A DNA stretch of 45,367 nucleotides from Cylindrodendrum hubeiense. Taxonomy: Eukaryota; Ascomycota; Sordariomycetes; Hypocreales; Nectriaceae. The position numbers and the translations under genes are program-made. Of the stretch, positions 2,442 to 27,003 are shown one piece after another (the first letter of the stretch is position 1; each line of letters opens with the position of its first letter). Where the stretch lies: contig JAANBB010000338.1 in the NCBI GenBank assembly GCA_014621425.1, positions 1 through 45,367 of the forward strand. The letters run 5' to 3'. The notes under the pieces were generated by a model. That model worked only from the letters and a program-made list of their open reading frames with translations, did not search any database and was not told the origin of the DNA.

Positions 2442-5021
2442 ATGGGTCTTTCAACGATCTTCACCACCAGCCTCTTGGCCTTGCGCCTTTTCGCCACGGT
2501 CAGCGCTGCTCCTTCACCTGTTGCCGAGGTATCCCTCGAAGCCAGAGCCGACTCTACTTGGTGGTTCGCCAACATCGAGCGCCAGGGCGCCGCCGCCTAC
2601 GGAGCTTCAGACTACAAGGTCTTCCGCAACGTCAAGGACTATGGCGCCACCGGTGACGGCAGCACCGACGACACGGATGCTATCAATTCCGCCATGTCTG
2701 ATGGCAACCGCTGCGGCAAGGGCTGCGACTCGAGCACCGTCACCCCTGGTCTCGTCTACTTCCCTCCCGGTACCTACGTCGTTTCCTCGCCCATCATCCC
2801 CTACTACTACACCCACATGGTTGGTGATGTCAAGTCCCTCCCCATCCTGAAGCCTACTGCTGCTTTCGCCGGTATGGCTGTCATCGATGCCGATCCCTAC
2901 AATGACGATGGCACCAACTGGTTCACCAACCAGAACAACTTCTTCCGCCAGATCCGCAACTTCAAGATCGATCTCACTGGCATGCCCAAGACCTCCGGTA
3001 CCGGTATCCACTGGCAGGTTGCCCAGGCCACTTCCCTGCAGAACATCGAGTTCATCATGATCGAGGACTCGAGCGAGGACAACGCTCAGCAGGGTCTGTT
3101 CATCGACAACGGCTCTGGAGGTTTCATGACCGACCTCACCTTCACTGGTGGAAAGTACGGTGCTTTCGTCGGCAGCCAGCAGTTCACCACCCGCAACATG
3201 ACCTTCAACAAGTGCAACACTGCCATCTACATGAACTGGAACTGGGCCTGGGCCTTCCACGGCATCACCATTGAGAACTGCGGTATCGGCATCGACATGA
3301 CCGCTGGCGACAGCATCCAGAACGTCGGCTCCATCCTGCTCCTCGACAGCACTATCTCCAACACCCCCATCGGTGTCTCCACCAACTACGACCCTGCTCA
3401 GTCTGGTGGCACCAACGGAACTCTCATCCTCGACAACGTCGACATGTCCTCCAATGTCCCCATTGCTGTCAAGAACGCCGGTACTGAGGCCACCATCCTT
3501 GCTGGCAACGCCAAGATCGAGTCATGGATCCAGGGACGCACCTACATTGACGGCGAAGGCAATGCTGTCCAGGACACCCAAACCGCTATCACTAAGCCCG
3601 ATGTCCTGCTCAACAGCGACGGCAATGTTGTGACCAAGAGCAAGCCCCAGTACGATGATGTCGCTGCTGCCAAGTTTGTCTCCGTCAAGACCAAGGGTGC
3701 CAAGGGTGATGGTTCCACCGATGATACTGCTGCAATCCAGGCCGTCTTTGACGGTATTGCCGCTGACGAGATTGTCTACTTCGACCATGGTGCCTATGTC
3801 ATCACCGACACCGTCAAGGTTCCCAAGGACATCAAGATCGTCGGTGAAATCTGGGCTCTCATCATGGCTGGTGGTGACACCAACTTCAAGGACCAGGCCA
3901 ACCCCAAGGCTGTCTGGCAGGTTGGTGAGAAGGGCGATGTTGGCAACGTTGAGATCCAGGACATCATGTTCGAGACTCTGGGCCCCCAGCCCGGTGCCAT
4001 TCTCATGGAGTTCAACGTGGCTGGCGAGACTGCTGGCTCTGCCGGTCTCTTCGACGTTCACTTCCGCGTTGGTGGCTCTGCTGGTACCAACCTGCAGTCA
4101 GACACTTGCAAGAAGACCCCCAAGGTTACCACCGAGCCTATTGACGAGTGTGTCGGCGCCTTCATGCTCATGCATGTTACTGAGAAGGCCAGCATCTACA
4201 TGGAGAACACCTGGCTCTGGGTTTCTGACCACGAGCTCGACCTGTCCGACCACTCCCAGGTTAACATCTACAATGGCCGCGGTATCCTGATTGAGAGCTC
4301 TGCGGGCTGCTGGCTCTGGGGCACTAGCTCCGAGCACAACGTCCTCTACAACTACCAGCTGACCGGTGCCTCCAACGTCTACATGTCACTCATCCAGACC
4401 GAGACTGCCTACTTTCAGGGCAACCCTGATGCTACTGTTCCCTTCACCGTCAACTCTGACTACTCTGACCCCGACTTCTCCACCTCTTGCACTGGCGATT
4501 CGACCAAGTGTGCCCGTACCTGGGGTGTCCGCGCCGTGGACTCATCTGACATCTTCATCTATGGTGCTGGTCTCTACAGCTTCTTCAACAACTACGACCA
4601 GGTGTGTGTCGGCGAGAACAACTGCCAGGACAACATTATCAGTATCGAGAGCTCCACTCTGCACCTCTATGGCCTGAGCACCAAGGCCAGTGTCAACATG
4701 GTCACTGTGGATGGAACCTCCGCTGCCCTCGACGCGGACAACCGCAACAACTTCTGTGCCGCTATCGGTCTTTTCTCCACGACCAGCAGCGGCCAGGCCG
4801 ACGGCAACAACAGCGGCGATGACAACTCGGCCTCTAGCTCTGCCAAGGCCAGTGCGTCCAAGACGGCTGTGGTCGACGATACCGCTTCGACAGCAGTGCC
4901 TGTGGTTGCTACCTCGGCCGCAGCGACCTCAGTTGCCGCAACTACTATTGCGACGTACATCTCCGTGACGACTGTCACTGTCACGAAGACTGTCGTTCAG
5001 ACGATTTACCCTACTGCCTGA
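2442..5021 (+). CDS. Secreted GH55 exo-beta-1,3-glucanase
   Basis: Intronless 859-residue protein. It begins with a hydrophobic signal peptide (about residues 1-22, cleavage near SAA/PSP). Two right-handed beta-helix halves follow, each opening with a pectate-lyase-superfamily signature: KDYGATGDGSTDD near residue 67 and TKGAKGDGSTDD near residue 417. This double helix is typical of GH55 glucan 1,3-beta-glucosidases. The conserved block MENTWLWVSDHELD (about residue 587) belongs to the catalytic half. About 70 C-terminal residues are Ser/Ala/Thr/Val-rich and look like an O-glycosylated tail. The family releases glucose or gentiobiose from beta-1,3/1,6-glucan, in fungal wall remodelling or mycoparasitism. 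The start at 2442 (context ACGATGG) is followed directly by the signal peptide. Length matches family members of about 750-950 residues. Confidence 0.93.
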   Translation: MGLSTIFTTSLLALRLFATVSAAPSPVAEVSLEARADSTWWFANIERQGAAAYGASDYKVFRNVKDYGATGDGSTDDTDAINSAMSDGNRCGKGCDSSTVTPGLVYFPPGTYVVSSPIIPYYYTHMVGDVKSLPILKPTAAFAGMAVIDADPYNDDGTNWFTNQNNFFRQIRNFKIDLTGMPKTSGTGIHWQVAQATSLQNIEFIMIEDSSEDNAQQGLFIDNGSGGFMTDLTFTGGKYGAFVGSQQFTTRNMTFNKCNTAIYMNWNWAWAFHGITIENCGIGIDMTAGDSIQNVGSILLLDSTISNTPIGVSTNYDPAQSGGTNGTLILDNVDMSSNVPIAVKNAGTEATILAGNAKIESWIQGRTYIDGEGNAVQDTQTAITKPDVLLNSDGNVVTKSKPQYDDVAAAKFVSVKTKGAKGDGSTDDTAAIQAVFDGIAADEIVYFDHGAYVITDTVKVPKDIKIVGEIWALIMAGGDTNFKDQANPKAVWQVGEKGDVGNVEIQDIMFETLGPQPGAILMEFNVAGETAGSAGLFDVHFRVGGSAGTNLQSDTCKKTPKVTTEPIDECVGAFMLMHVTEKASIYMENTWLWVSDHELDLSDHSQVNIYNGRGILIESSAGCWLWGTSSEHNVLYNYQLTGASNVYMSLIQTETAYFQGNPDATVPFTVNSDYSDPDFSTSCTGDSTKCARTWGVRAVDSSDIFIYGAGLYSFFNNYDQVCVGENNCQDNIISIESSTLHLYGLSTKASVNMVTVDGTSAALDADNRNNFCAAIGLFSTTSSGQADGNNSGDDNSASSSAKASASKTAVVDDTASTAVPVVATSAAATSVAATTIATYISVTTVTVTKTVVQTIYPTA

Positions 5022-5520
5022 ATATATTCCTCGCAAACGTACATAGGACTGAAGGAGTCGCCACAGACGTGGTTGCTGCCTTATTCTTTTCGAGAGCTCT
5101 TTTTTATGTGGTTTTGTTACGGTACCGTAGTGACTGATTGGGTTTTAAAAGTCACTGGGAATTGGAGTTTGGGATAGCGACACAACGCGCCAGGCAAGGG
5201 TCGGTGCCCGGATGAGCTATACGGGGCAGCTAGATAAACTGAATCGAAGCGCTTCCCTTGAATGATTGCGAATCTTTGTGTGTGACATGATGTGACAATT
5301 GTGATGCGAGGCAGTAGTGATGCGAAGCCATCGAGTGACGGGACAGACCACCTCCCTCACATGCCGGCTGCCAGGTTCTTTCATCCCATCGTGTCGCCTG
5401 AGGCCACACGAAGACGTCGGTGCTTGACATGAGAAGAGATGATAGAGAGAAAGAACATGTACAAAAGAAAATTGTCGAAAACGGATATAAGTTAAAAAAC
5501 GAGTGGTGTCGTACTGTCAC
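5022..5520. other. 3' flank of the GH55 gene
   Basis: No coding region seen. The stretch holds the presumed 3' untranslated region of the glucanase and a short palindrome around GGTACC (about 5120-5128). Nothing else is recognisable before the first RNA-like repeat unit. Confidence 0.4.
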
Positions 5521-5673
5521 GGAAAAGAAGACGGGGTCTCGAACCCACGGACCTGGGTCACTACGACTGGCAAAAAGCGAAGCTCACCGAGGTGAGGATG
5601 TAATTCGTAGGACTTATGAGGTTTCGCTACTTCGCTGAGAGACTTGACAATTAGTTTCGCTTATAAGGGCTCA
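5521..5673 (-). ncRNA. RNA-like tandem unit, copy 1 (putative Pol III transcript)
   Basis: Read on the minus strand: A-box-like CAGCGAAGTAGC (5637-5626), then a hairpin of CTCACC/GGTGAG (5583-5588 with 5591-5596 on the plus strand), then CTTCGCTTTTTGCC, a B box with a tRNA T-arm look (GGGTTCGAGACCC, about 5549-5537) and a TTTT run at 5526-5523. The segment AGCGAAG (plus 5576-5582) is complementary to CTTCGCT (plus 5630-5636), giving a closing stem. This copy has the best tRNA-like T-arm, but no complete cloverleaf can be drawn. Transcription is inferred, not shown. Confidence 0.55.
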
Positions 5674-5993
5674 AGGCTGTGCAGATGGATGCCTGGTGTG
5701 TGGCGTTGGTAGCAGGGGACGTGGTGGCTTGGCCTGGCGTCACGGGAGATGAGCGTGATTGCGGGAGAAGTGATGGTATGATGGAGACATGTCAACATGC
5801 TCATAGTGAATGGGAATATGGGTGTGATGAATAGTTGGATATTTGGCCAGTGTTTAGACATCAATCGATTTGGTGACAGTAACTAATCCTATGTGTTACA
5901 GGTTGGCCGAAGCCTCACGACAGTTCAACATGTAGACGAGCATACGGTGAATTTTAAACGAGATCAATTCAGAAACACGGTCATAGAATTACC

Positions 5994-6212
5994 AAAAATG
6001 AATGAATCGGGTGGCATCTATAACGTTATTCGAAAGAAGAACCCAGCCTATCTACCCATCTGTGCCAAAAAGCGAAGTCCCGAAGCGCGGGCAACCATCC
6101 ATAGTGTTCATCGGCCACGCCGCACGGCCACACCATGTAACTTGAGTTGGATCTTGCTACTTCACTGGCAAAGAACATTGCTGATTTGGGATATCAGGAT
6201 TCCATTGATGAC
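5994..6212 (-). ncRNA. RNA-like tandem unit, copy 2 (putative Pol III transcript)
   Basis: Same order as copy 1 on the minus strand. The A box is CAGTGAAGTAGC (6167-6156). The closing stem is 8 bp (plus 6071-6078 AGCGAAGT with 6159-6166 ACTTCACT), keeping pairing through a G-U pair where the A box has changed. The adjacent hairpin is CCCG/CGGG (6079-6082 with 6088-6091). The B-box core TTCGAA is at 6029-6034 and a T5 run at 5998-5994. A GTGGCCGTGCGG segment in the loop is shared with copy 3. Confidence 0.55.
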
Positions 6213-6417
6213 CACTGGGTGCTGGAGTGAGAAGGCGGGTGGAGGCGACCTCGGGCGAGCACGCCGAGTGACTCAGAGCTCTAGGCCGCTTCACCACAGA
6301 ACATTGATGAAGTGCATACAGAGAATAATAATGATCAAATGTTTATGAAGAACGAGATCTACATGAAAGATGATGCAAATAATACCAAGAAAAATAAAGT
6401 AAGAACAAGCAGCAGGT

Positions 6418-6630
6418 AAAAAAGTGAAACAAACGGTACTCGAACAACAAATCTCAAGCCCATCTCTGACGTCCCAAAAAAGCGAAGGCACCGTGGGCCG
6501 GGGGCGAGCCTCCCTGCTGGTCATGCGGTCGCACCGCACGGCCACTAAACCTGGTGTCATAGTTTGAAAGTTTGGGTCTCGCTACTTCGCTGGGAGAAGA
6601 TATTGTTACTTTGGTATATCTGGGTTTCCA
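6418..6630 (-). ncRNA. RNA-like tandem unit, copy 3 (putative Pol III transcript)
   Basis: Minus-strand A box CAGCGAAGTAGC (6592-6581), closing complement AGCGAAG at plus 6481-6487, B-box core TTCGAG (plus ACTCGAAC, 6438-6445) and a T6 run at 6423-6418. The loop holds a perfect hairpin GCGGT/ACCGC and the GTGGCCGTGCGG segment shared with copy 2. The hairpin beside the closing stem, clear in the other copies, is weak here, so this copy may be decaying. Confidence 0.5.
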
Positions 6631-6805
6631 TTGTTTGCGGTTGGAGTCTCTGGGCTGGTGGGGCGGGAGAAGTGGGCGGAGGTTGGCTAGAACGTCAAGG
6701 CAGCCATGTGGCGGACAACCCGGATGAAGGGAACTAACTTCACCACGGAGAGGAACGTCATGATTGAACCGAGTTTAAAGAAGGAGTCTTGAAGATAATT
6801 TAAGT

Positions 6806-7035
6806 AAAAAAAAATACAAACAAAATAGAAGCGATAACTGACTATAGGTGAAAGGCGAAATACGCAGCCTCGAACACATGAACTTTTCCAGCGATATCGC
6901 CGAAAGGAGCAAAAAGCGAAGGCTTCCTGGGGAAGCTAAAGTGGAATTTGCTTTCGCTGTTGATGCCGTTAAGGCAGAAGAGTGTCTGCTACTTCGCTGA
7001 AAGAGCAACCTGTTACTTTGACATATGACGGCTCC
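6806..7035 (-). ncRNA. RNA-like tandem unit, copy 4 (putative Pol III transcript)
   Basis: Minus-strand A box CAGCGAAGTAGC (6999-6988), closing complement AGCGAAG at plus 6915-6921, and a perfect 6-bp hairpin GCTTCC/GGAAGC (6922-6927 with 6931-6936) directly beside it. The B-box core GTTCGAG is at 6875-6869. T-runs follow at 6825-6822 and 6814-6806 (nine Ts). A second small hairpin TGCC/GGCA lies in the loop, as in copies 6 and 7. Confidence 0.6.
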
Positions 7036-7252
7036 ATTGCTAGTGGCTGGGTGGTGGGGCGAGAGGTGCCTTGAGCAGCCAGGCAACAGGCAGCAGGCAG
7101 CAACAAGGGGATGACGGAGCATGCTTCACAACAACACAATGACAGACCATGAACATGAATGCAATTGTCAAGTCATTGTAAATAATGAGATTGAAATAGA
7201 AAAATAAAGAAAAATGTATCTTTGATAGAAAGATGAACAGCAATCGGTTATA

Positions 7253-7422
7253 AAATCACACGCCATTTCGAACTCCACACCCTTATTCAGGGAACTTACA
7301 CAAAATGGCAAAAAGCGAAGGTGGACTTTGACAGAAAGTCCACTGGGCTAAGACCGAAGTTTCCTTGTGTTTTTGCTACTTCACTGGGAGATTGCCCTGT
7401 TACTTTGGGATATCAGGACTCC
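7253..7422 (-). ncRNA. RNA-like tandem unit, copy 5 (putative Pol III transcript)
   Basis: Minus-strand A box CAGTGAAGTAGC (7386-7375), closing complement AGCGAAG at plus 7314-7320, and the longest hairpin of the family: 9 perfect pairs GTGGACTTT/AAAGTCCAC (7321-7329 with 7335-7343, loop of 5). The B box AGTTCGAA is at about 7274-7267 and a T4 run at 7256-7253. Upstream of the A box the conserved CAAAGTAACA and GATATC segments are present. Confidence 0.6.
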
Positions 7423-7634
7423 TTGAAGTTGGATAGTGGGGGTGCATCATGCCTCATGCACCAGGCACCAGGCACCAGCGCCAGATAGGGGCCGCCCCTT
7501 TCACGATCAGCACACCTGAGGAGCATAGAAGATCAGAATGATCAAATAGATAGAAATCATGGAACGAAGATCAAGAATAGAAGAAAATATTAAAAATAGA
7601 AGAATACGGGAACTCACATACATCATGAAGTAAT

Positions 7635-7811
7635 AAAAGTGATTTCGAACCAAAGCCCTTATTTGGGACGTCGCCTAAAACGGCAAAAGCGAAGGCATCC
7701 CAGGGAATGCTTGATTTGAATTGCAAATATCCAGAGGATTGCCACGAAGGCAGAAGGTTTTTACTACTTCGCTGAGATACCTGACTATTAAATTAGGATA
7801 TTAGGGCTCCC
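7635..7811 (-). ncRNA. RNA-like tandem unit, copy 6 (putative Pol III transcript)
   Basis: Minus-strand A box CAGCGAAGTAGT (7774-7763), closing complement at plus 7688-7694 pairing with 7767-7773, hairpin GCATCCC/GGGAATGC with one bulge (about 7695-7710), B box TGGTTCGAAATC (7652-7641) and T4 at 7638-7635. The outer ends AGCCCT and AGGGCT are also complementary (6 bp), which would enclose the whole unit. The loop contains the TGCC/GGCA mini-hairpin. Confidence 0.6.
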
Positions 7812-8011
7812 TCCGGGAAGATGGTGGGAGAAATGCGAGTGGTGGGTGGATGGCGTTCAGGCGTCCAGGCGTCTAGGCAGCAGCCACTAACACGGTATGA
7901 CACAGAGCACTCTTGGAGCAATGGGACAATCGAACAATGAGGATACGAATAAAGCATTCCAAGAAATGTCAACGATGAATTGAGATCAAAAATAAACTAA
8001 AAGTCACGAAT

Positions 8012-8230
8012 AAAAAGACAAATGACAGCCAATATATGCCAGCATGTAGCAGAAGCCTTTTCGAACTCAAGACTCCTTTTCAGAGGTGTCATCCAAATCG
8101 GCAAAAGCGAAGGCTTCCCGAGGGAAGCTGATTGTGTAACAAATGTTCGTTGGTCTTGCCGATGAGGCAGACAGATGGCTGCTACTTCGCTGGTAGAATG
8201 ATCGGTTGAACCTGGCTATAAGGTGGCGGT
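8012..8230 (-). ncRNA. RNA-like tandem unit, copy 7 (putative Pol III transcript)
   Basis: Minus-strand A box CAGCGAAGTAGC (8192-8181), closing complement AGCGAAG at plus 8106-8112 with 8185-8191, and a perfect hairpin GCTTCCC/GGGAAGC (8113-8119 with 8122-8128). The B box GAGTTCGAA is at 8068-8060. The nearest long T-run is T5 at 8016-8012, about 45 bases past the B box. The TGCC/GGCA loop hairpin is present. Its 5' end is less conserved than in copies 2-6. Confidence 0.55.
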
Positions 8231-8776
8231 GTTGCCAAGGCTTGCACGCTAGCATGCGTGCCTGATGAGCGCCGCTTACATGCAAGCATGGATCTGCTGA
8301 ATAATACTTGTGTTATAATGTGCATTCTTAGATTATTTCTGCAGTTTAAGTTATGCAGAGTAAGTCAGCTTGTGCCAAACGCTCTCAATCAGGACAACCA
8401 GTCCCTCTGGGCAGCATATCCGCCCATTGAAGCAGCTCCTCCCATTTAAGACCTTCAGTCACGGAAATCTAACACATCCAGTGATTCTATCACCTTGAAA
8501 TGTCCTGGTGACGACCAGGGCAAGAGAAGAACGACCTGGAGAGAGCGAATCTAGTATTAGAACAGGTTCTAACTAGTGTGGTTGCACTGGACAGACCAAG
8601 GCCGTGCCTGGATTATTACGAAACTCGCATGGTCTTACTCCAGAGTTTTATTTCACGATAAAGTAATTGATGTAGAGCTTCTTTGGTACTCTCTCCTCGT
8701 TGCCAGCCTAGAGGGACATGTCGAATACTCCTTTACCTGGCACTCTTCTATCTTGTTTCTAGTATGACTGCCAGAC
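8231..8776. other. Spacer between the RNA-like array and the GH3 gene
   Basis: No coding region or repeat recognised. It includes the 3' flank of the minus-strand beta-glucosidase. Confidence 0.4.
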
Positions 8777-11563
8777 TCAGAGTCCCAGCCACTCATAGTC
8801 CTTGTCTACCACAACCGTACTCTCCAGCCCCTCGGCATTACCAATGCTGATACCATAAGTTCCCTTGTCAACTTTCCATACGTTCTTCGCAACATCCCAA
8901 TGACTAAGAGCCTTCTTTAGATCTATTGCAATATCCACCTCCTTCGAAGCTCCAGGCTCAAGCGCTACCTTGGTAAGCCCTCTGAGTGATTTCGGACGCG
9001 ATACCGCCATCTCGATTGGTCGGACGTATACTTGGACTGCTTCTGCACCAGCCACGCTTCCAGTATTCTTCAAGTTCACCTTGACACTGAACTCCTCGTT
9101 CTTTTCGATGTTCTCGATCTTGCTGGGTTTGATGACCAAGCCGCTGTATTGGAAAGACGTGTAAGATAGACCAAAGCCGAAAGGATATCTGTGGTCAACT
9201 TCCGTCGTGTCGCGGCGATACCCGACTTCAAGTCCCTCACTCAGATGCAGGTCAATGGTACCATCGGCAGCTTGGGTGGCAGGGAAATGAGAAAATGAGC
9301 CGACATCCTCCAATCGCTTCGGCCACGTTGTAGCCAACTTTCCACTGGGATTCACCTTGCCCGAAAGAACATCCGCAATCGCTGCGCCACCTTCTTGTCC
9401 TAGATAGTGGGCGTGGATGATGGCATCTACATCCTCGACAAAGGAAGACACATCCAGAGGACCGCCGCTGTAAAGAACCACAATAGTCCGCTTGCTGACA
9501 GCTGCCACAGCCTTCACCATGGCAGCTTGGTTGCCAGGTAGGTAAATATCTGGCATATCTGAGCCTTCTCCTTCATGCTCGGAATTCCGACCCGCGAAGA
9601 CGATGGAGATGTCGGAGTCGGAAGCAATTGAGACAGCCTCCGCAATAGCGTCATCGTCCGAGTAGGCGTACTGGAAGCAGAGGCGCCCGATATGGGGAGC
9701 GGGCTCGTTGGGCTTTTGCTTTATAGAGGTCCAAGATTGAATGACAAGCTTGATGGAATAGGACTTGCCGGCTTCCATGGGGTGCGAGTAGGATTTTTCG
9801 AGCTTGAAGGATGCGAAGAGGAACTCTTCAGCGTTGCAGTTCGGGGAGGGTGCAGACAATACCTGATAAATCGATTAGCTTCTGCCCGGATATGTAGAAG
9901 GGTCAAATAGTTACCTCGGAGCCATCTATAAACAACTTAAAGGCGCCAGTTGTGTGTACACCAATAGTATGATTGCCAGTGGTTTCTGGCGTCAGGGTTG
10001 TACTCAACTCGTACCTGAAGCCAGCTGAATCCAAGCCAGGCTTGATATGACCGAGCATTGTAACCTGTCCATGGCTCTGGAACTCCTTGAGCGCAGGCAC
10101 ATCAGGCGACTTGTTGTTATAATAAGTAACATCAATCCCGTTCTTTCCATTCTCTGCTGTAATCAAGCTGGTGGGTATCGGTGGAAGAACCTTATTACAA
10201 CGAACACCGGCAGCGAACCGGACAAGGTCCGGCTGAGTGTGTGCAGCCTGAATACAATCCAATGGCTTCAGAACATATTGCGGGGGTGCAAGGGAGCTGC
10301 CTCCGCCACCCACCGGAGGGTCAACTGCTGGTTGTCCAACAATGGCAAGCTTGGGGGCTTTCTTTAGGTCTAGAGGCAGGGCCTGGTCCTTGTTTTTGAG
10401 CAGGACAATTCCCTCCGATGCGACCTGATGAGCGACGGAGACGGCTTCTTCATTGCTCAAGGCTGGCTTGCGATCGGAACCAGTCACTTTGTCGATCCAC
10501 TCTAGCATTTTGCGTGCGCACCGATCAATATGCTCCTCGGTGACTTGGCCCTCTTTGAGAGCTTTTAGAAGTCGGGGCCCACGGAATATGGATGGCCCAG
10601 GCATCTCCAGATCCTGGCCGGCTATAATCGATGCAGCTGTAGAGACAGTACCAAACCAGTCCGACTGGATGGCGCCGTCGTAACCCCATTCTCCTCGGAT
10701 GACCTTCTCAATGAGTGGCGTCTCTGAAGTATAAATACCGTTGACTTTGTTATAGCTTTTATGAGGTAGTTAGAATCATGTCCTTCGTTGGAAGGCTGGT
10801 AGGTAGAACTTACGAGGTCATAATGCAGACCGGGTTTGAATGGACAAGGAGCTCTTGGAAGGCAGAAAGGTAGAGCTCTCGGAGGGCGACGCCGCCAGTA
10901 GGATCAATGACATTATATGCCCTTCGGTAATCCTCGGCATCGTTGGCGACAAAATGCTTTGCACATGCACCAACTCCCTGTTGTTGGATGCCGTTGATCA
11001 TGGCGCCGCTCAACAAGCCGGTGAGATAGGGGTCCTCGCTGAAGTATTCAAAGTTTCGTCCGCAACGTGGGTCGCGATGCAAATTGACACCAGGGCCCAT
11101 GATAGTTGCTATGTCCTTCTCTCGCGCCTGACTGCCGAGTGCCTGACCAAGCCGATAGCTCAATTCCGGATTAAATGTAGCTCCAAAGCAGCTTGTGCTT
11201 GGGTAGCAGACTGTCTTGGGACCACCGCCTGCGAGGACATCGGCGACTGTGTCGCCGGCATCGATGGCCATGGCGTCCTTGACACCATTTACTCCCTCAG
11301 CCAACTATGCCGCATATCATTAGCCAAGTTCGTAATCAGTGGCTAGTTTTCCACTCCAGGAATCGAGGTGGGTTTACCTTGAGGGAGGGAATGTCCAGCC
11401 GGGGAATTCCTGCTGTGGTGGTAAATCCGGAGCCGGCGAGAAGAGATATCTTTTCTTCAATTGACAGCTGCGCCAACTGCGCGGCCACTTTCTCGCCATC
11501 GTAGGACAGAGAGACCCTCTCGGATGTCTCTGTAGAGTGGTCCATATTTGAATAAAGCTGCAA
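8777..11563 (-). CDS. GH3 beta-glucosidase with PA14 insert, probably intracellular
   Basis: Four exons: 11563-11378, 11304-10814, 10755-9915, 9862-8777 (introns of 73, 58 and 52 bp, all GT-AG); 867 residues. The N-terminal GH3 barrel holds GRNFEYFSEDPYLTG and the QSDWFG motif, whose Asp (about residue 258) is the family nucleophile. A PA14 carbohydrate-binding insert (about residues 395-545) sits inside the second GH3 domain, as in fungal PA14-type beta-glucosidases. SEHEGEGSDMPD lies in the acid/base region, and a fibronectin-III-like domain (RYPFGFGLSYTSF onward) ends the protein. There is no signal peptide, so a cytosolic role in cleaving imported cellobiose or glucosides is inferred. The usual DGPNGVRG block reads EGVNGVKD, a mild departure. 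Confidence 0.9.
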
Positions 11564-18875: not shown

Positions 18876-19170
18876 ACGCGGAACAAATGCTCTTACACTT
18901 GTACATAGAGAGAAATCCAGGCCGTCTGTATATCTTTACGATTTTTCATCTTGAAGCCGAGCATGAGCAAGTAATTTCCAAGTGAGCATCTCGCAAAATG
19001 ATGGCCAGATACGTAGATTGCTTGTGCTAGACTTACAACATGGCGCGTCATGGGTGGGTCTGACTGTCAACAGATGGGGATACAAGATGGGTGAAATGAA
19101 GACGTGTGGGCAAGCGAACAAAACAAAAAAGACAAAACCAACATAAGTCAGGAAGAGATCAAACGGTACC
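18876..19170. other. 3' flank of the multicopper oxidase
   Basis: Nothing recognisable apart from the presumed 3' untranslated region. Confidence 0.4.
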
Positions 19171-19393
19171 AAAAACAACATCATGTATGCAACAGTAGCG
19201 ATGGGGTTCGAACTCATAACCATTCGACTCAACTCAAGCCCAAAACGGCAAAAGCGAAGGCAACCCGAAGGTGGCGGGGTTTGTGGTTCATAGCTGACGA
19301 CCACCGGAAGTGATCAGTCGGCCAAAAGGACGGTTGTTTGTTTGTGGCTACTTCGCTGGAAGGGTAGCTATTGTTTTGATACATAGGGTCTTG
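19171..19393 (-). ncRNA. RNA-like unit, dispersed copy 8 (putative Pol III transcript)
   Basis: A solitary member of the 5.5-8.2 kb family, about 11 kb away and in the same orientation. Minus-strand A box CAGCGAAGTAGC (19358-19347), closing complement at plus 19253-19259 with 19351-19357, and a hairpin with one mismatch and a UUCG loop (GCAACC 19260-19265 with GGTGGC 19270-19275). The B box is GAGTTCGAACCCC (19215-19203), and a T5 run lies at 19175-19171, about 30 bases downstream. Being isolated, it helps define the ends of the conserved unit. Confidence 0.6.
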
Positions 19394-19884
19394 TTCACGG
19401 CTGTTGGTTGTGGCCCATCGGAGGGACTTGACCGGGGTGGTGATGACGGTCTGACTCAGCCGGCAACGTGCTGTCTGGACGTGGCTTCGGGAGCTGATGA
19501 ACCAGCTAATCCAGGATTCAACGCTTGTGGCTGATGAGGCCATAAATCACCGGAAGTTCCTGAGTAGCTTGATGCATCTTGAGGTTGTGGTGGGTGTTCA
19601 GATGGTCGATAGATCTCGCCCGCCAGATCAACCCCACCGGAAGTTCGTTCCACCGCCGCCGGGATGGAAGCATCACGAACACAGGCCCCACGCCACCCGT
19701 AGACGTCATAGGTGGCAGCTCTGGTCATCGCCAACAAGCTGCCAGCAAGGCCATTCTGCCACCGCGCATGCCAGTCTTCCCTCCCGCTCACTGCTAGAGT
19801 TTCGTCACGCTCAATCCACTCGATGCGATATTGATTCCAGTATCAGCCTCCCGTTCGCTTCGTCGCGACCTCCTCCACACACCT
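19394..19884. other. Promoter region of the FIT/SCS3 gene
   Basis: No coding region supported. The motif CACCGGAAGT occurs at 19548-19557 and 19635-19644 (and at 19302-19311 inside copy 8), a spacing that suggests a repeated regulatory word. The regulator is unknown. Confidence 0.35.
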
Positions 19885-22960: not shown

Positions 22961-25900
22961 AGATTATCTTTCTTTCTATATTTAATTATATAATAATAGA
23001 GAAAATTTACTTTACTATTCCTCTAGTAATCCTAGATAATTCTTTTTTTTCTTTATATTAGATTAATAAATTCTATATTAATTTAGTAGTAATTATATAT
23101 TTCCCTTTATTATATAATTCTATATATTGCTAGATATTAGTCTTTGTGGAAAACTCCTTTTTATTTATTATTAATTTCTGGATATCTATTATTACTTTAT
23201 TAAAAAGATCCTTATTAAATTAATTAATAAGAAATAGACTAGGATAGAGAAAGATATTACTATTAAAACTTTTTAATAATAAAGAGAAGAATATCTAATC
23301 TCTCTAAGGAAAGTTCAGAATCTCTATTATCTTATTTAATTAATATAATTTGCAAATTCTTAGAATTATAATTATAATCTTATTATAGATAGTCTATAAA
23401 ACTAGGAATATAATCTTAAATACCTTAAATATAGAATATAATTATATAGTTATACTAATTATCTCACTTACTATAAAAATAAACTATATATTAACTAAAT
23501 ACCCCTTCTAGGTCTATTAATAACTATAGCTAATATAGGATTAGCTAGTATATAGCTAGACCCTCTAGCTAATATAAGATTATAATATCAAGAATTACCT
23601 AACTCTCTTATAGGGAATGATGATTATATAAGCCTGTATCTTTTATTATAAATACTAACTAATAGATCTCTGATCTGATCTCTAATCCTATTTCTAGATC
23701 TAATAACTAATATACTTCTAGTGATTATTATAACTAATAAGTAATTCTAATAATTATTAGATAATATATAACCTACTCTAATAAATATAAGTAATACTTA
23801 TATCCACTTCTAGCTAAAAGAAGTAGGATAATTCTAATCTTTAGGAATCTATAATAAATAATTTAATAATATTATTATAGATAATATTAAGGTTATCTAT
23901 TAGTAAGTAAAATACTTTAATAATATTCTAATTTAATATATAGTTAGANGANTANAATATAAAATATTATTANTANTAAATATCNTATAATTNCTCTTAG
24001 AATNNNNTCTTAATTAATATAATAATAATCTAGATAATATNTAGTAGAGTNCNTATATAAATANTATTATTAGACTTANATANTAATATAANTTACTTAA
24101 AGAATAATTCTAGATATAGANTAATATTATCTTATANTCTTTTAATAAANTNAGNTATANCNTTTAANATATTTATAATTAGATAGACTTCTATACCTAG
24201 ATATCTTAGGTAAAATATTAATCTATTATAGCCAGGTATAATAATATATAGCTAAAATTAATTATCTTTATTAAATTAGATAATCCTCTATATAAAAAAC
24301 TAATAGTCTTAACTCTATTATAAATACTTCCTAAATAGATTAAGTAATATATATATATAATACTAAATCTTTATTATACTATTATTAAGGGAAGTCTTAA
24401 AGACTAGATAAATAAGTTCAAGTAAAGATAAAATATATCTTCTTACCTAAGTCTAAGTATTTCCTATTTTATCTAGCTAGGAGTAATAAGATCTATTAAG
24501 ACCTTAGAATAATTATATAATATTCTAAGTGGAGATTATAGTATTAGAAATTAGTATATTCTCTAAAATGCTTATAGATCTAGGATACTAACTCTATACT
24601 TATAGATTCTAGCTATATCTAGATCTCTAAATATTAATTCTCTTAATTAAATCTTAATTAAAGTATTATTAGGATAATCTGATTAAGTAATCTTAGATAT
24701 TCCTAGACTATCTCTAATATATTAATCCTCTTCTTTCTAATAAGAAAGTATATATTCTAGTAATATCCTATAGGGAAATTATATTAATTATCTAATTAAG
24801 AATATCTTAGTAAATAATTAAGATAAAGTCTATTTCTTTAAGGAAATACTAGAATAGGTATTAATAATTAGTAAATAAGATTACTTTTTAATTGAAGATT
24901 ATATTATAGAGATAGTGAGTTTTATAAATAATAAGATTTTAGATAAAGATAAAATAGATAATCTAATAATATCTAGAACTGAGAAATTCTATAGATTTAT
25001 CTAAGAGATTATTATTATTATCTTATAGGTAGAGTATATTAGCTTTATCCTAGATATTAATAATAGAAAACTAGTATTTAATAATATTACTTTCCCTTTA
25101 TAGAAAATATCTCTACTATTATCTATAGTTAAATATATCTTAGTGGAAATTACTCTAGGATTAAGATTATTAGTATAATATATATATTTCCAGATTTAAG
25201 TATAAGCTAGACCTTATAAAAAGACTAGGTAGGAAGTTTATCTTAATTCTAGGACTATTAAATTAATTATCTTATAGGAAATATTATCCTTCTTTCTAGA
25301 TATCTCTATAAATAAAAGTCTTTAGGTAAAACTTAAAGATATAAGAATAAGCTATATTAAAAGATAGGTAATCTTTATTATTTATTTACCTAAGTATAAA
25401 GATAGAAAACTAATATTAATAAAAGCTATTATTAGTATATAGGTAATATCTAGTTTAAGTATTAGTCTTTTCCTAAGATAAGAATTTAATATATCCTATT
25501 AAATAGATATTCTAAACTTAACCTAGGAAATAGTAATTGAGTTAGTTAATAGAATATACCTATTAGTAATAGTATATTACAGGTCCAAATTAACTAGAAT
25601 ATCCTTATATATAATAGACTCTATAATAATTCCCCTAAAGAGTAGTAAGGCTATATAAGTTTCTAGAGGAGAATAAGTTAAAGGATAGGATTATCTTCTT
25701 AATCCCTGATATAAAGAAATGATTAGTATTTTAATATAATAACTAGAGATAGTATATGTAATAAACTATTCCTAGAAATCTATAATCTTCTAGCTAAACT
25801 AATATGTGATTACTTTAAATCCTATTAATCTTAGTGAAAAAATCAAGGAAGTTAATTGGGCTTGGCTTATAGTTATTCATGGAGAATATATACTTATTAG

Positions 25901-26885
25901 CTATAATATACTAGCTGAAATAGTGGAAATTAATATCCTAGAAGAAGATAATCTCTAGAAAGATAACCTATCTATTTAGATCTAGGGTATAGATAGTAAT
26001 ATTAAGCTAAGTATTTCCTAGTTAAAATATCTATTAGTATATACTCTCTTATAAGGAATTTATATATTTAAAGGAAAACTGGGGTTTATTAATAAACTCT
26101 AGGAACTAATAGAGTCCTTTTCTGAATTCTAGACTAATATTAGAGTAATTAATATTAAGGAAAAATACTAGATAAAGATATTATTAGCAGAGAATTAATA
26201 TAAATAAAAGCTTAATTTTAGGATATATTCTCTTAGTTTTAAAAGTAGAGAATTCCTAGATAAAATATTTAATAAATTATATAAGTAAGATAGGATAGAA
26301 TAAGTTCATGAACTTACTCTCTTTATTAACTTAATATTTATTATATAGTGAATAGTTAATAGAAAAGAAAAGAGTTATGTTATAGTTAATTTATAAACTC
26401 TTAATTATATTATTATCCTAGATATTTATCTAATATCTCTCTAGTAGGATATTCTCTGAAAACTCTATAGAAAGAAATAAATAATAATTATAGATATTTA
26501 AAACTTCTTTTACTAGTTCCTTGTATATTAAACTTATTATAACCGGTTTATAGTAATTAATTATTAAGGGATAGAATAATCTAAGATTATCCTAATAGAC
26601 TTTAAGAATTTACTAATCTATATCTAATAATTTATAGATTATATCTTAAAAGATTATTAGGAATATATTTTTATATTTATTAATAATATTATTATTTATT
26701 TTAAATATTAAAATCTTTTTTATTTAATATATTTAAAATACTTATTTTATATTTATAAGTGTGTTTAATAATATTTATCTTATTTTTTATATATCTTTCT
26801 TATATATCTTATATTATATTATATTATATTATTCTCTACTATATTATCTTAATAATTAATAAATAACTTATATATACATATTCTG
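22880..26885. mobile_element. AT-rich RIP-mutated block with a Ty3/gypsy-like retrotransposon relic
   Basis: About 4 kb of extreme AT content begins and ends sharply. CA, TG and CG dinucleotides are rare by eye and TA is abundant, which is the pattern left by repeat-induced point mutation. No frame stays open. On the plus strand at about 26490-26720 a reverse-transcriptase-like reading is still visible: an FFY segment, YYNRF, and FINNIII where the polymerase motif normally has Asp-Asp (GAT to AAT, consistent with RIP on the other strand). Many stops are TAA or TAG where Gln is expected. Order and spacing resemble Ty3/gypsy polymerase. Scattered single N bases occur at 23949-24168. Confidence 0.75.
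26490..26720 (+). pseudogene. Decayed reverse transcriptase segment
   Basis: Translation in one frame across stops gives the spaced landmarks of a retrotransposon polymerase palm: NFFY, then YYNRF about 14 residues on, a FIDYILKDY stretch, and FINNIII at the position of the catalytic FxDD box. Both catalytic Asp are replaced by Asn. The segment is non-functional. Assignment to Ty3/gypsy rests on this motif order and is moderately sure. Confidence 0.55.
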
Positions 26886-27003
26886 TGTATGCTCATAACG
26901 GGGTCGTATTATACTAAAAGATATCCCATCAGCCAGTAGTGCACTCCTTCCCAAGTGAAACAACATCAACAAGTAGCTCCACGCTGTACCTCTGTTCTAC
27001 TCA

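Follow-up and report, generated by a model that had tools for sequence, protein, structure and literature searches.

We describe here eight related units on the minus strand of a 45,367-nucleotide stretch of DNA from the fungus Cylindrodendrum hubeiense (the window, which is the whole of the 45-kb contig C266; the genome is 47.5 Mb in 798 contigs). We think it probable, judging from the sequence, that these units are a family of U6-type RNA polymerase III (Pol III) genes whose RNAs have fixed ends and a free middle. With moderate confidence, we suggest that the products are small structured RNAs that carry a common protein on their ends. An initial annotation of this DNA had proposed a structured, Pol III-like family with tRNA-like promoters. 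The structured family stands, with signs of selection on its pairing and no match by Rfam or ARAGORN, but the tRNA-like promoter is not supported.

Seven of the copies (c2 to c8) lie within 5529-8236 and one (c1) within 19198-19402. The seven are the tandem units counted in the initial annotation and have the spacing given there: CTTCGCTTTT is found at 5573, 6068, 6478, 6912, 7311, 7685 and 8103, in steps of 495, 410, 434, 399, 374 and 418. The eighth copy (19250-19357) is outside the tandem block. All eight have the same order of parts on the minus strand: a TATA-like element, the word CAGYGAAGTAG, a middle, CTTCGC with a run of T's, and TTCGA. The span from AGYGAAG to CTTCGCT plus 4-6 T is 65-116 nt in all eight, and the middle is 44-94 nt long, including a hairpin (P3, below) at its end. 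AGYGAAGTAG has eight exact matches in the window, each of them on the minus strand and inside one of these units; with one mismatch allowed there are 13 matches, compared to 3.98 (standard deviation 1.82) expected. The predicted RNAs are listed below (T4 is a run of four T's, and so on).

c1: 19250..19357, minus strand, predicted RNA from AGCGAAG to CTTCGCTTTT, 108 nt, T4
c2: 8103..8191, minus strand, predicted RNA, 89 nt, T4
c3: 7685..7773, minus strand, predicted RNA, 89 nt, T4
c4: 7310..7385, minus strand, predicted RNA, 76 nt, T5 (held out of the covariance model and recovered by it)
c5: 6911..6998, minus strand, predicted RNA, 88 nt, T5
c6: 6476..6591, minus strand, predicted RNA, 116 nt, T6
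c7: 6067..6166, minus strand, predicted RNA, 100 nt, T5
c8: 5572..5636, minus strand, predicted RNA, 65 nt, T5

Conservation among the copies is confined to four short islands. Pairwise identity was taken from ungapped 10-nt windows, since cheap gaps inflate identity in a gapped comparison. It stays at 0.23-0.40 across the flanks and the middle, and the higher of these values fall in a T-rich stretch beyond the B box. Identity is 0.45-0.58 in windows from -40 to -20 (the upstream element), 0.96 at AGYGAAGTAG, 1.0 at CTTCGCTTTT and 0.65-0.72 at TTCGA. Outside these islands, the copies are about as dissimilar as unrelated DNA. Because identity rises only at the four islands, the copies look like old duplicates that have kept little else.

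The upstream element is shared with U6 genes of the same genome. The TATA-like motif starts 34 nt upstream of AGYGAAG, or 33 nt in c1 (by alignment), at these places:

c1: 19371..19390, minus strand, TATA-like element, spacing 1 nt shorter
c2: 8206..8225, minus strand, TATA-like element, weak (leave-one-out score 0.9)
c3: 7788..7807, minus strand, TATA-like element, from upstream alignment and matrix
c4: 7400..7419, minus strand, TATA-like element, from upstream alignment and matrix
c5: 7013..7032, minus strand, TATA-like element, from upstream alignment and matrix
c6: 6606..6625, minus strand, TATA-like element, from upstream alignment and matrix
c7: 6181..6200, minus strand, TATA-like element, from upstream alignment and matrix
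c8: 5651..5670, minus strand, TATA-like element, from upstream alignment and matrix

We built a 20-nt matrix from the eight upstream regions and tested it on four genes (two for U6, one for the signal recognition particle (SRP) RNA and one for RNase P RNA), with 359,894 positions as background. Leave-one-out scores within the family are at least 12.0 in six of the eight copies. The U6 gene on contig C450 (L031) scores 20.65, compared to a background maximum of 16.9, and its element starts at -32 from the Rfam start and -34 from the first G. The other, intron-bearing U6 gene (L032) scores 9.75 at -31 (p 1.6e-4 per position). For the SRP RNA gene, the score is 10.96 at -33 from base 501 (the Rfam start is 502; p 6.4e-5 per position). 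U6 retains its primary 5' end. From this and the shared spacing, we infer that transcription of the family starts at or near AGYGAAG. The TATA-like element common to the family and U6 is then about 30 bp upstream of the presumed start.

The position of the T-run relative to the B box also fits a U6-type gene. The TTCGA core of a B box, which the initial annotation had recognized, is found after the paired part in all eight copies:

c1: 19208..19212, minus strand, TTCGA, 37 nt past the T-run
c2: 8061..8065, minus strand, TTCGA, 37 nt past the T-run
c3: 7645..7649, minus strand, TTCGA, 35 nt past the T-run
c4: 7268..7272, minus strand, TTCGA, 37 nt past the T-run
c5: 6870..6874, minus strand, TTCGA, 36 nt past the T-run
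c6: 6440..6444, minus strand, TTCGA, 31 nt past the T-run
c7: 6030..6034, minus strand, TTCGA, 32 nt past the T-run
c8: 5539..5543, minus strand, TTCGA, 28 nt past the T-run

A T-run shortly downstream of the B box had been described as well. Such runs exist, but their position is not fixed; the run that is fixed (T4-T6) directly follows CTTCGC and precedes the B box in all eight copies, as T4 only in three of them. For comparison, we used the tRNA genes of this genome (30 loci of 59 matches, reduced to 26 genes by setting aside four on contig C360, which is AT-rich and apparently mitochondrial). The first run of at least four T's after these 26 genes is T4 in 3, T5 in 11, T6 in 8, T7 in 3 and T8 in 1. 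A run of T5 or longer thus comes first after 23 genes; the remaining three have a T5 within 21 nt. Since the runs after tRNA genes are mostly T5-T6, the T5-T6 runs of c4 to c8 are of a length common after Pol III genes here. The TATA spacing puts the start at or near the so-called A box and the T-run comes before the B box, and therefore the layout is of the U6 type, with an external B box. Most likely, the so-called A box belongs to a terminal helix as one of its strands, the T-run that follows CTTCGC is the terminator and the B box is external. A predicted start at or near the A-box word and a T-run that precedes the B box do not agree with a promoter of the tRNA type, whose A and B boxes are both internal.

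The ends of the predicted RNA are complementary. As had been noticed, AGYGAAG pairs with CTTCGCT in all eight copies (helix P1), and a T in place of C, found in the copies at 6157 and 7376 (c7 and c4; copies 2 and 5 of the initial annotation), gives a G-U pair. The adjacent hairpin, P3, closes immediately before CTTCGC, or one base before it in c7. Its significance was estimated with 300 dinucleotide shuffles per copy:

c1: 19260..19275, minus strand, P3 hairpin, one C-U mismatch, p 0.093
c2: 8113..8128, minus strand, P3 hairpin, p 0.010
c3: 7695..7710, minus strand, P3 hairpin, p 0.037
c4: 7321..7343, minus strand, P3 hairpin, 9 pairs, p 0.007
c5: 6922..6936, minus strand, P3 hairpin, p 0.010
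c6: 6488..6505, minus strand, P3 hairpin, imperfect, p 0.163
c7: 6079..6091, minus strand, P3 hairpin, 4 pairs, p 0.163
c8: 5583..5596, minus strand, P3 hairpin, p 0.020

The claim of a hairpin beside P1 thus holds for all eight copies, but significance in the single copy is missing in three. The joint p is 3.7e-6 (Fisher, eight copies), a value that treats paralogues as independent and overstates the case because the copies are related. In a hand-set register, which for c6 differs from its computed fold, pair 1 is G-C in six copies and C-G in two, and pair 2 is C-G in six and T-A in two. Pair 3 is standard in six of eight (four kinds of pair), pair 4 in all eight (again four kinds), pair 5 in 7/7 and pair 6 in 5/6. 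Changes on both sides occur in pairs 1-5. The initial annotation took conserved pairing in diverged sequence to imply selection on RNA structure. The two-sided changes in P3 are signs of such selection, but the covariation is modest, P1 changes on one side only and the eight copies are paralogous.

A covariance model sets these copies apart from the rest of the window. The model was made from seven copies; c4 was left out because MAFFT misplaces its CTTCGC, and it served as the test. All eight copies were recovered in the window, including c4 (7311-7423; 67.5 bits, E 7.9e-15). The best match in the window outside the family has 10.8 bits. On 86 loci that hold no family copies (259,407 bases), the model gave three matches at E up to 10, the top one being the U6 gene on C450 (17.2 bits, E 0.07).

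Short motifs were counted through the whole genome. CTTCGCTTTT occurs 138 times (127 for the reversed control) and AGYGAAGTAG 127 times (control 330). The pattern CTTCGCTTTTKBS, which fits all eight copies, has 38 sites in 47.5 Mb (control 29), eight of which are the family units. At the other 30, the model (22 run with default filters, 8 separately) found no convincing ninth copy, although diverged copies that are closed differently would escape this search. The best of these 30 sites (L100, 14.6 bits) is attributed to chance: its inner part is 15 bases long and it has no P3. ATATNCCAAANTAA has seven sites in the genome (reversed control 3), and the four further ones score at most 9.9 bits with the model and have no Rfam match. 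Used as a DNA query against the whole genome, c3 matches only itself and misses its seven known sisters, and this search is therefore without power.

Several observations weigh against a family of U6-type genes. Three copies, c1, c2 and c3, carry only T4, and their next T5 is 37-53 nt beyond the start of the B box. In each of the three tRNA genes with T4, a T5 follows within 21 nt. Pol III may therefore not be stopped by T4 alone, and the T4 of c1-c3 may be leaky as a terminator. The A box of yeast U6 is at about +21. No consistent A-box match was found at about +21 in the eight copies, and UAGY, at +8, fits only 4-6 of the seven A-box positions; it is a possible weak A box. The upstream element is weak in c2 (0.9), and that of c1 scores -21.8 unshifted and needs a shift of 1 nt to fit. 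The element is missing from the expected place at the RNase P RNA gene, where the score is 6.33 and out of position, at -66. With respect to structure, P3 alone is not significant in c1 (0.093) or in c6 and c7 (0.163 each), and its joint p assumes independent paralogues. Folding of the whole RNA gives z scores of -1.6, -3.5, -1.8, -2.3, -2.6, -1.0, -0.35 and -1.9 for c1 to c8. Finally, P1 changes on one side only (C to U) and never on both, so that P1 rests on complementarity and conservation and not on covariation.

Some of these observations would be expected if the units were instead type-2 (tRNA-like) Pol III genes, in which AGYGAAGTAG is an internal A box, the B box is internal as well and transcription ends at a T-run past it. 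The initial annotation was correct that CAGYGAAGTAG fits an A box: each of the eight copies agrees at six of the seven informative positions. Furthermore, a run of at least five T's is found 21-60 nt after the start of TTCGA in every copy, and a T4 is all that precedes the B box in c1-c3. Type-2 transcription starts 18-20 nt upstream of the A box. By this rule, however, no more than 14-16 nt would separate the start from the point where the TATA-like motif begins, compared to 31-34 nt in the U6 and SRP genes of this genome. In addition, T5-T6 runs, of a length common after the tRNA genes here, precede the B box in five of the eight copies. The later T-runs have no fixed position and are in T-rich, little-conserved DNA. 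We therefore consider type-2 genes unlikely. The units could also be precursors of microRNA-like RNAs (milRNAs), that is, short Pol III hairpins with T-runs that are used by RNA interference (RNAi) proteins. In Neurospora, milR-1 to milR-4 depend on Pol III and have a T-run directly after the milRNA, and milR-1 requires TATA-like elements (PMC3547838). The units here likewise finish in a helix plus T-run. RNAi machinery is indicated by two Piwi-domain matches in the genome. Given Argonaute-type genes and Neurospora milR units of this kind, milRNA precursors have some chance. We nevertheless regard them as quite unlikely: the predicted folds are branched and none is one long hairpin (P1 has 7 bp and P3 has 4-9 bp; c1, c6 and c7 have longer inner hairpins), and no inner sequence of milRNA length is common to all copies.

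Two other explanations do not involve functional RNAs. The units might be a DNA element, an array of B boxes that bind TFIIIC as a chromatin barrier, with the RNA-like parts incidental. There are eight B-box cores, seven of them in a row, and in fission yeast both TFIIIC-bound B-box repeats and tRNA genes serve as barriers (PMC2040200). But binding of TFIIIC alone gives no reason to keep a T-run, a TATA-like element and the P1 and P3 pairing, and the block sits between protein genes, with the AT-rich block of the window beginning about 15 kb away. A barrier of this kind is very improbable. Words resembling A and B boxes in tandem copies might also be left by decayed repeats derived from tRNAs or short interspersed nuclear elements (SINEs). 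We find this barely credible, as decay would not leave four short blocks and the pairing intact, the other 30 of the 38 CTTCGCTTTTKBS sites have no convincing match to the model and ARAGORN finds no tRNA in the window.

The U6-type family that we favor had no match to a known RNA family in our searches. That had been the impression of the initial annotation, and Rfam 15 gives no match above the gathering threshold in the whole window. At E up to 10, the regions 5400-8400 and 19100-19500 have six matches to Rfam, all far below gathering. A tRNA was considered and rejected, being called in the window by neither ARAGORN nor the tRNA model of Rfam. So was U6 small nuclear RNA, since RF00026 has no match in the units though U6 was found elsewhere in the genome; in addition, the ACAGAGA of U6 was not seen in the eight spans. 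No title listed by the literature search appeared to concern a family like this one, although a description may still exist in print.

The family shares its promoter arrangement with U6 but differs from U6 in its RNAs. In yeast SNR6, the TATA box is at -30, and the box B is extragenic and lies past the terminator (PMC9136082). SNR6 and the host U6 genes resemble the family in the upstream TATA-like element (in sequence and spacing, most closely on C450) and in ending at a T-run. The B box is outside the mature RNA in each case: downstream in the family and SNR6, and in an intron in the second host U6. Unlike U6, the family has eight diverged copies and would make short RNAs with paired ends.

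We found two genes for U6 in the genome. By our reading, the one at L032 (1501-1662, minus strand) has an intron (GTGAGT ... CTAAC ... CAG) that contains GCGTTCGAGCC, which we read as a B box. The intronless gene is the one at L031. About 100-200 bases past it is a tRNA-like unit with the A-box word TGGTGTAGTGG and the B-box word GGTTCGAACC, which neither ARAGORN nor Rfam calls as a tRNA; it may be the external B box of this U6. A U6-like upstream element, CCCTATATACCAAAGTAAC, was also seen at L107 (C478:23786, plus strand), before a sequence with no P1 and no Rfam match, possibly another Pol III gene.

Other systems are similar to the family in part. The Y RNAs and vault RNAs of animals are small Pol III RNAs that occur in clusters and have paired ends, an oligo-U tail and variable middles, and the family as predicted resembles them in all of these features. 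The Ro60/TROVE protein had no match in the genome, in a search whose control matched in 1 of 14 genomes. With Ro60 absent from this search, identity with Y RNAs is unlikely. The major vault protein had no match either, in a search whose positive control also gave none. Vault RNAs have internal boxes, whereas the B box of the family is outside. The Neurospora milR-1 to milR-4 units are, like the family, short units of the Pol III type from a Sordariomycete, in which TATA-like elements are present and the structured part is immediately followed by a T-run; the family differs in having no single long hairpin and an external B box conserved in all eight copies. In that source, the text predicts no A or B box for milR-1, and the legend of Figure 2 marks putative boxes among milR-1 to 4 (PMC3547838). 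Gao, Jones and Rivas recognized 17 structural RNAs of fungi by conserved pairing, four of them intergenic; these four occur at little over one copy per genome (e.g., 223 sequences in 207 genomes), are spread across Pezizomycotina or Ascomycota, and three have an H box (PMC8216456). The family is likewise a fungal RNA recognized by its conserved pairing and differs from those RNAs, as they are described there, in having eight copies in one genome.

We postulate that these units would work as follows. TFIIIB would be placed by the TATA-like element, with the start of its motif about 34 nt upstream. TFIIIC might help by way of the B box beyond the gene, perhaps together with a weak A box formed by the UAGY after the first helix. 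Transcription would begin at AGYGAAG, or no more than a few nucleotides from it, and end at the T-run after CTTCGC. The resulting RNA of 65-116 nt would be closed by the 7-bp end helix (P1), with the P3 hairpin against it, and La would bind the oligo-U tail left over. A shared protein might hold the unpaired UAGC as well as the conserved ends, and the variable middle could either engage a copy-specific partner or be a neutral spacer. That Pol III is the polymerase, where it starts and stops, and that the RNA enters a ribonucleoprotein are all inferred from the DNA, and at the role of the RNAs we can only guess. We give little chance to a more elaborate version, in which the units are tandem cassettes with U6 promoters and a diversified payload. 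These would make a small set of paralogous RNAs, specific to these fungi, that are guide-like or serve as decoys. A shared protein would sit on the helix and UAGC, and each middle, in most paralogues already too diverged to be recognized by sequence, would have an RNA or protein target of its own.

To our knowledge, few Pol III transcripts of filamentous fungi have been recognized beyond tRNA, 5S, U6, SRP and RNase P-like RNAs. If our reading is true, a tandem and strongly diverged family with U6-like promoters is a new class to be named, and it raises the question of what preserves the promoter, the RNA ends and the pairing in P3 when the middle is free to change.

Some middles have words in common. 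The neighbors c6 and c7 share GTGGCCGTGCGG, and their middles are otherwise unlike; c2, c3 and c5 (within 6911-8191) share TCTGCCT ... GGCA. These words hint at subfamilies. The inner part of each copy was also compared with the rest of the window, in sense and antisense. The longest exact matches are no longer than in shuffles, and no target was found there.

On one side of the tandem block is a pectate-lyase-like open reading frame (ORF) on the plus strand (2442-5021), and on the other is the end of a GH3 glycosidase on the minus strand, with its stop at 8777. Between them, no ORF that starts with ATG reaches 150 amino acids. c1 is located between a laccase ORF and a FIT-family ORF. Proteins of Neonectria ditissima and N. 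punicea share 80% identity with the laccase of the window; the value is 71% for a protein of Thelonectria olida and 86% for one further protein. The region 23000-27000 has 18-23% G+C, compared to 42-66% in the rest of the window, and is perhaps a repeat mutated by repeat-induced point mutation.

Paired sequences were also seen around a set of tRNA genes elsewhere in the genome. Eleven genes (L052-L062), which we read as Asp(GTC) tRNA genes, all have a hairpin directly upstream and another downstream, ahead of the T-run. The arms differ among the genes and yet pair, with one mismatch in L061; examples from the leaders are CAGGCG/CGCCTG, CAGGTGC/GCACCTG and ATGGTTG/CAACCAT. Leader z scores are -3.1 to -7.6, compared to -2.1 or weaker in 12 other tRNA genes, and trailer z scores are -1.5 to -3.2, compared to -1.2 or weaker. 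From these sequences, the structure of the leaders and trailers looks as if it is under selection.

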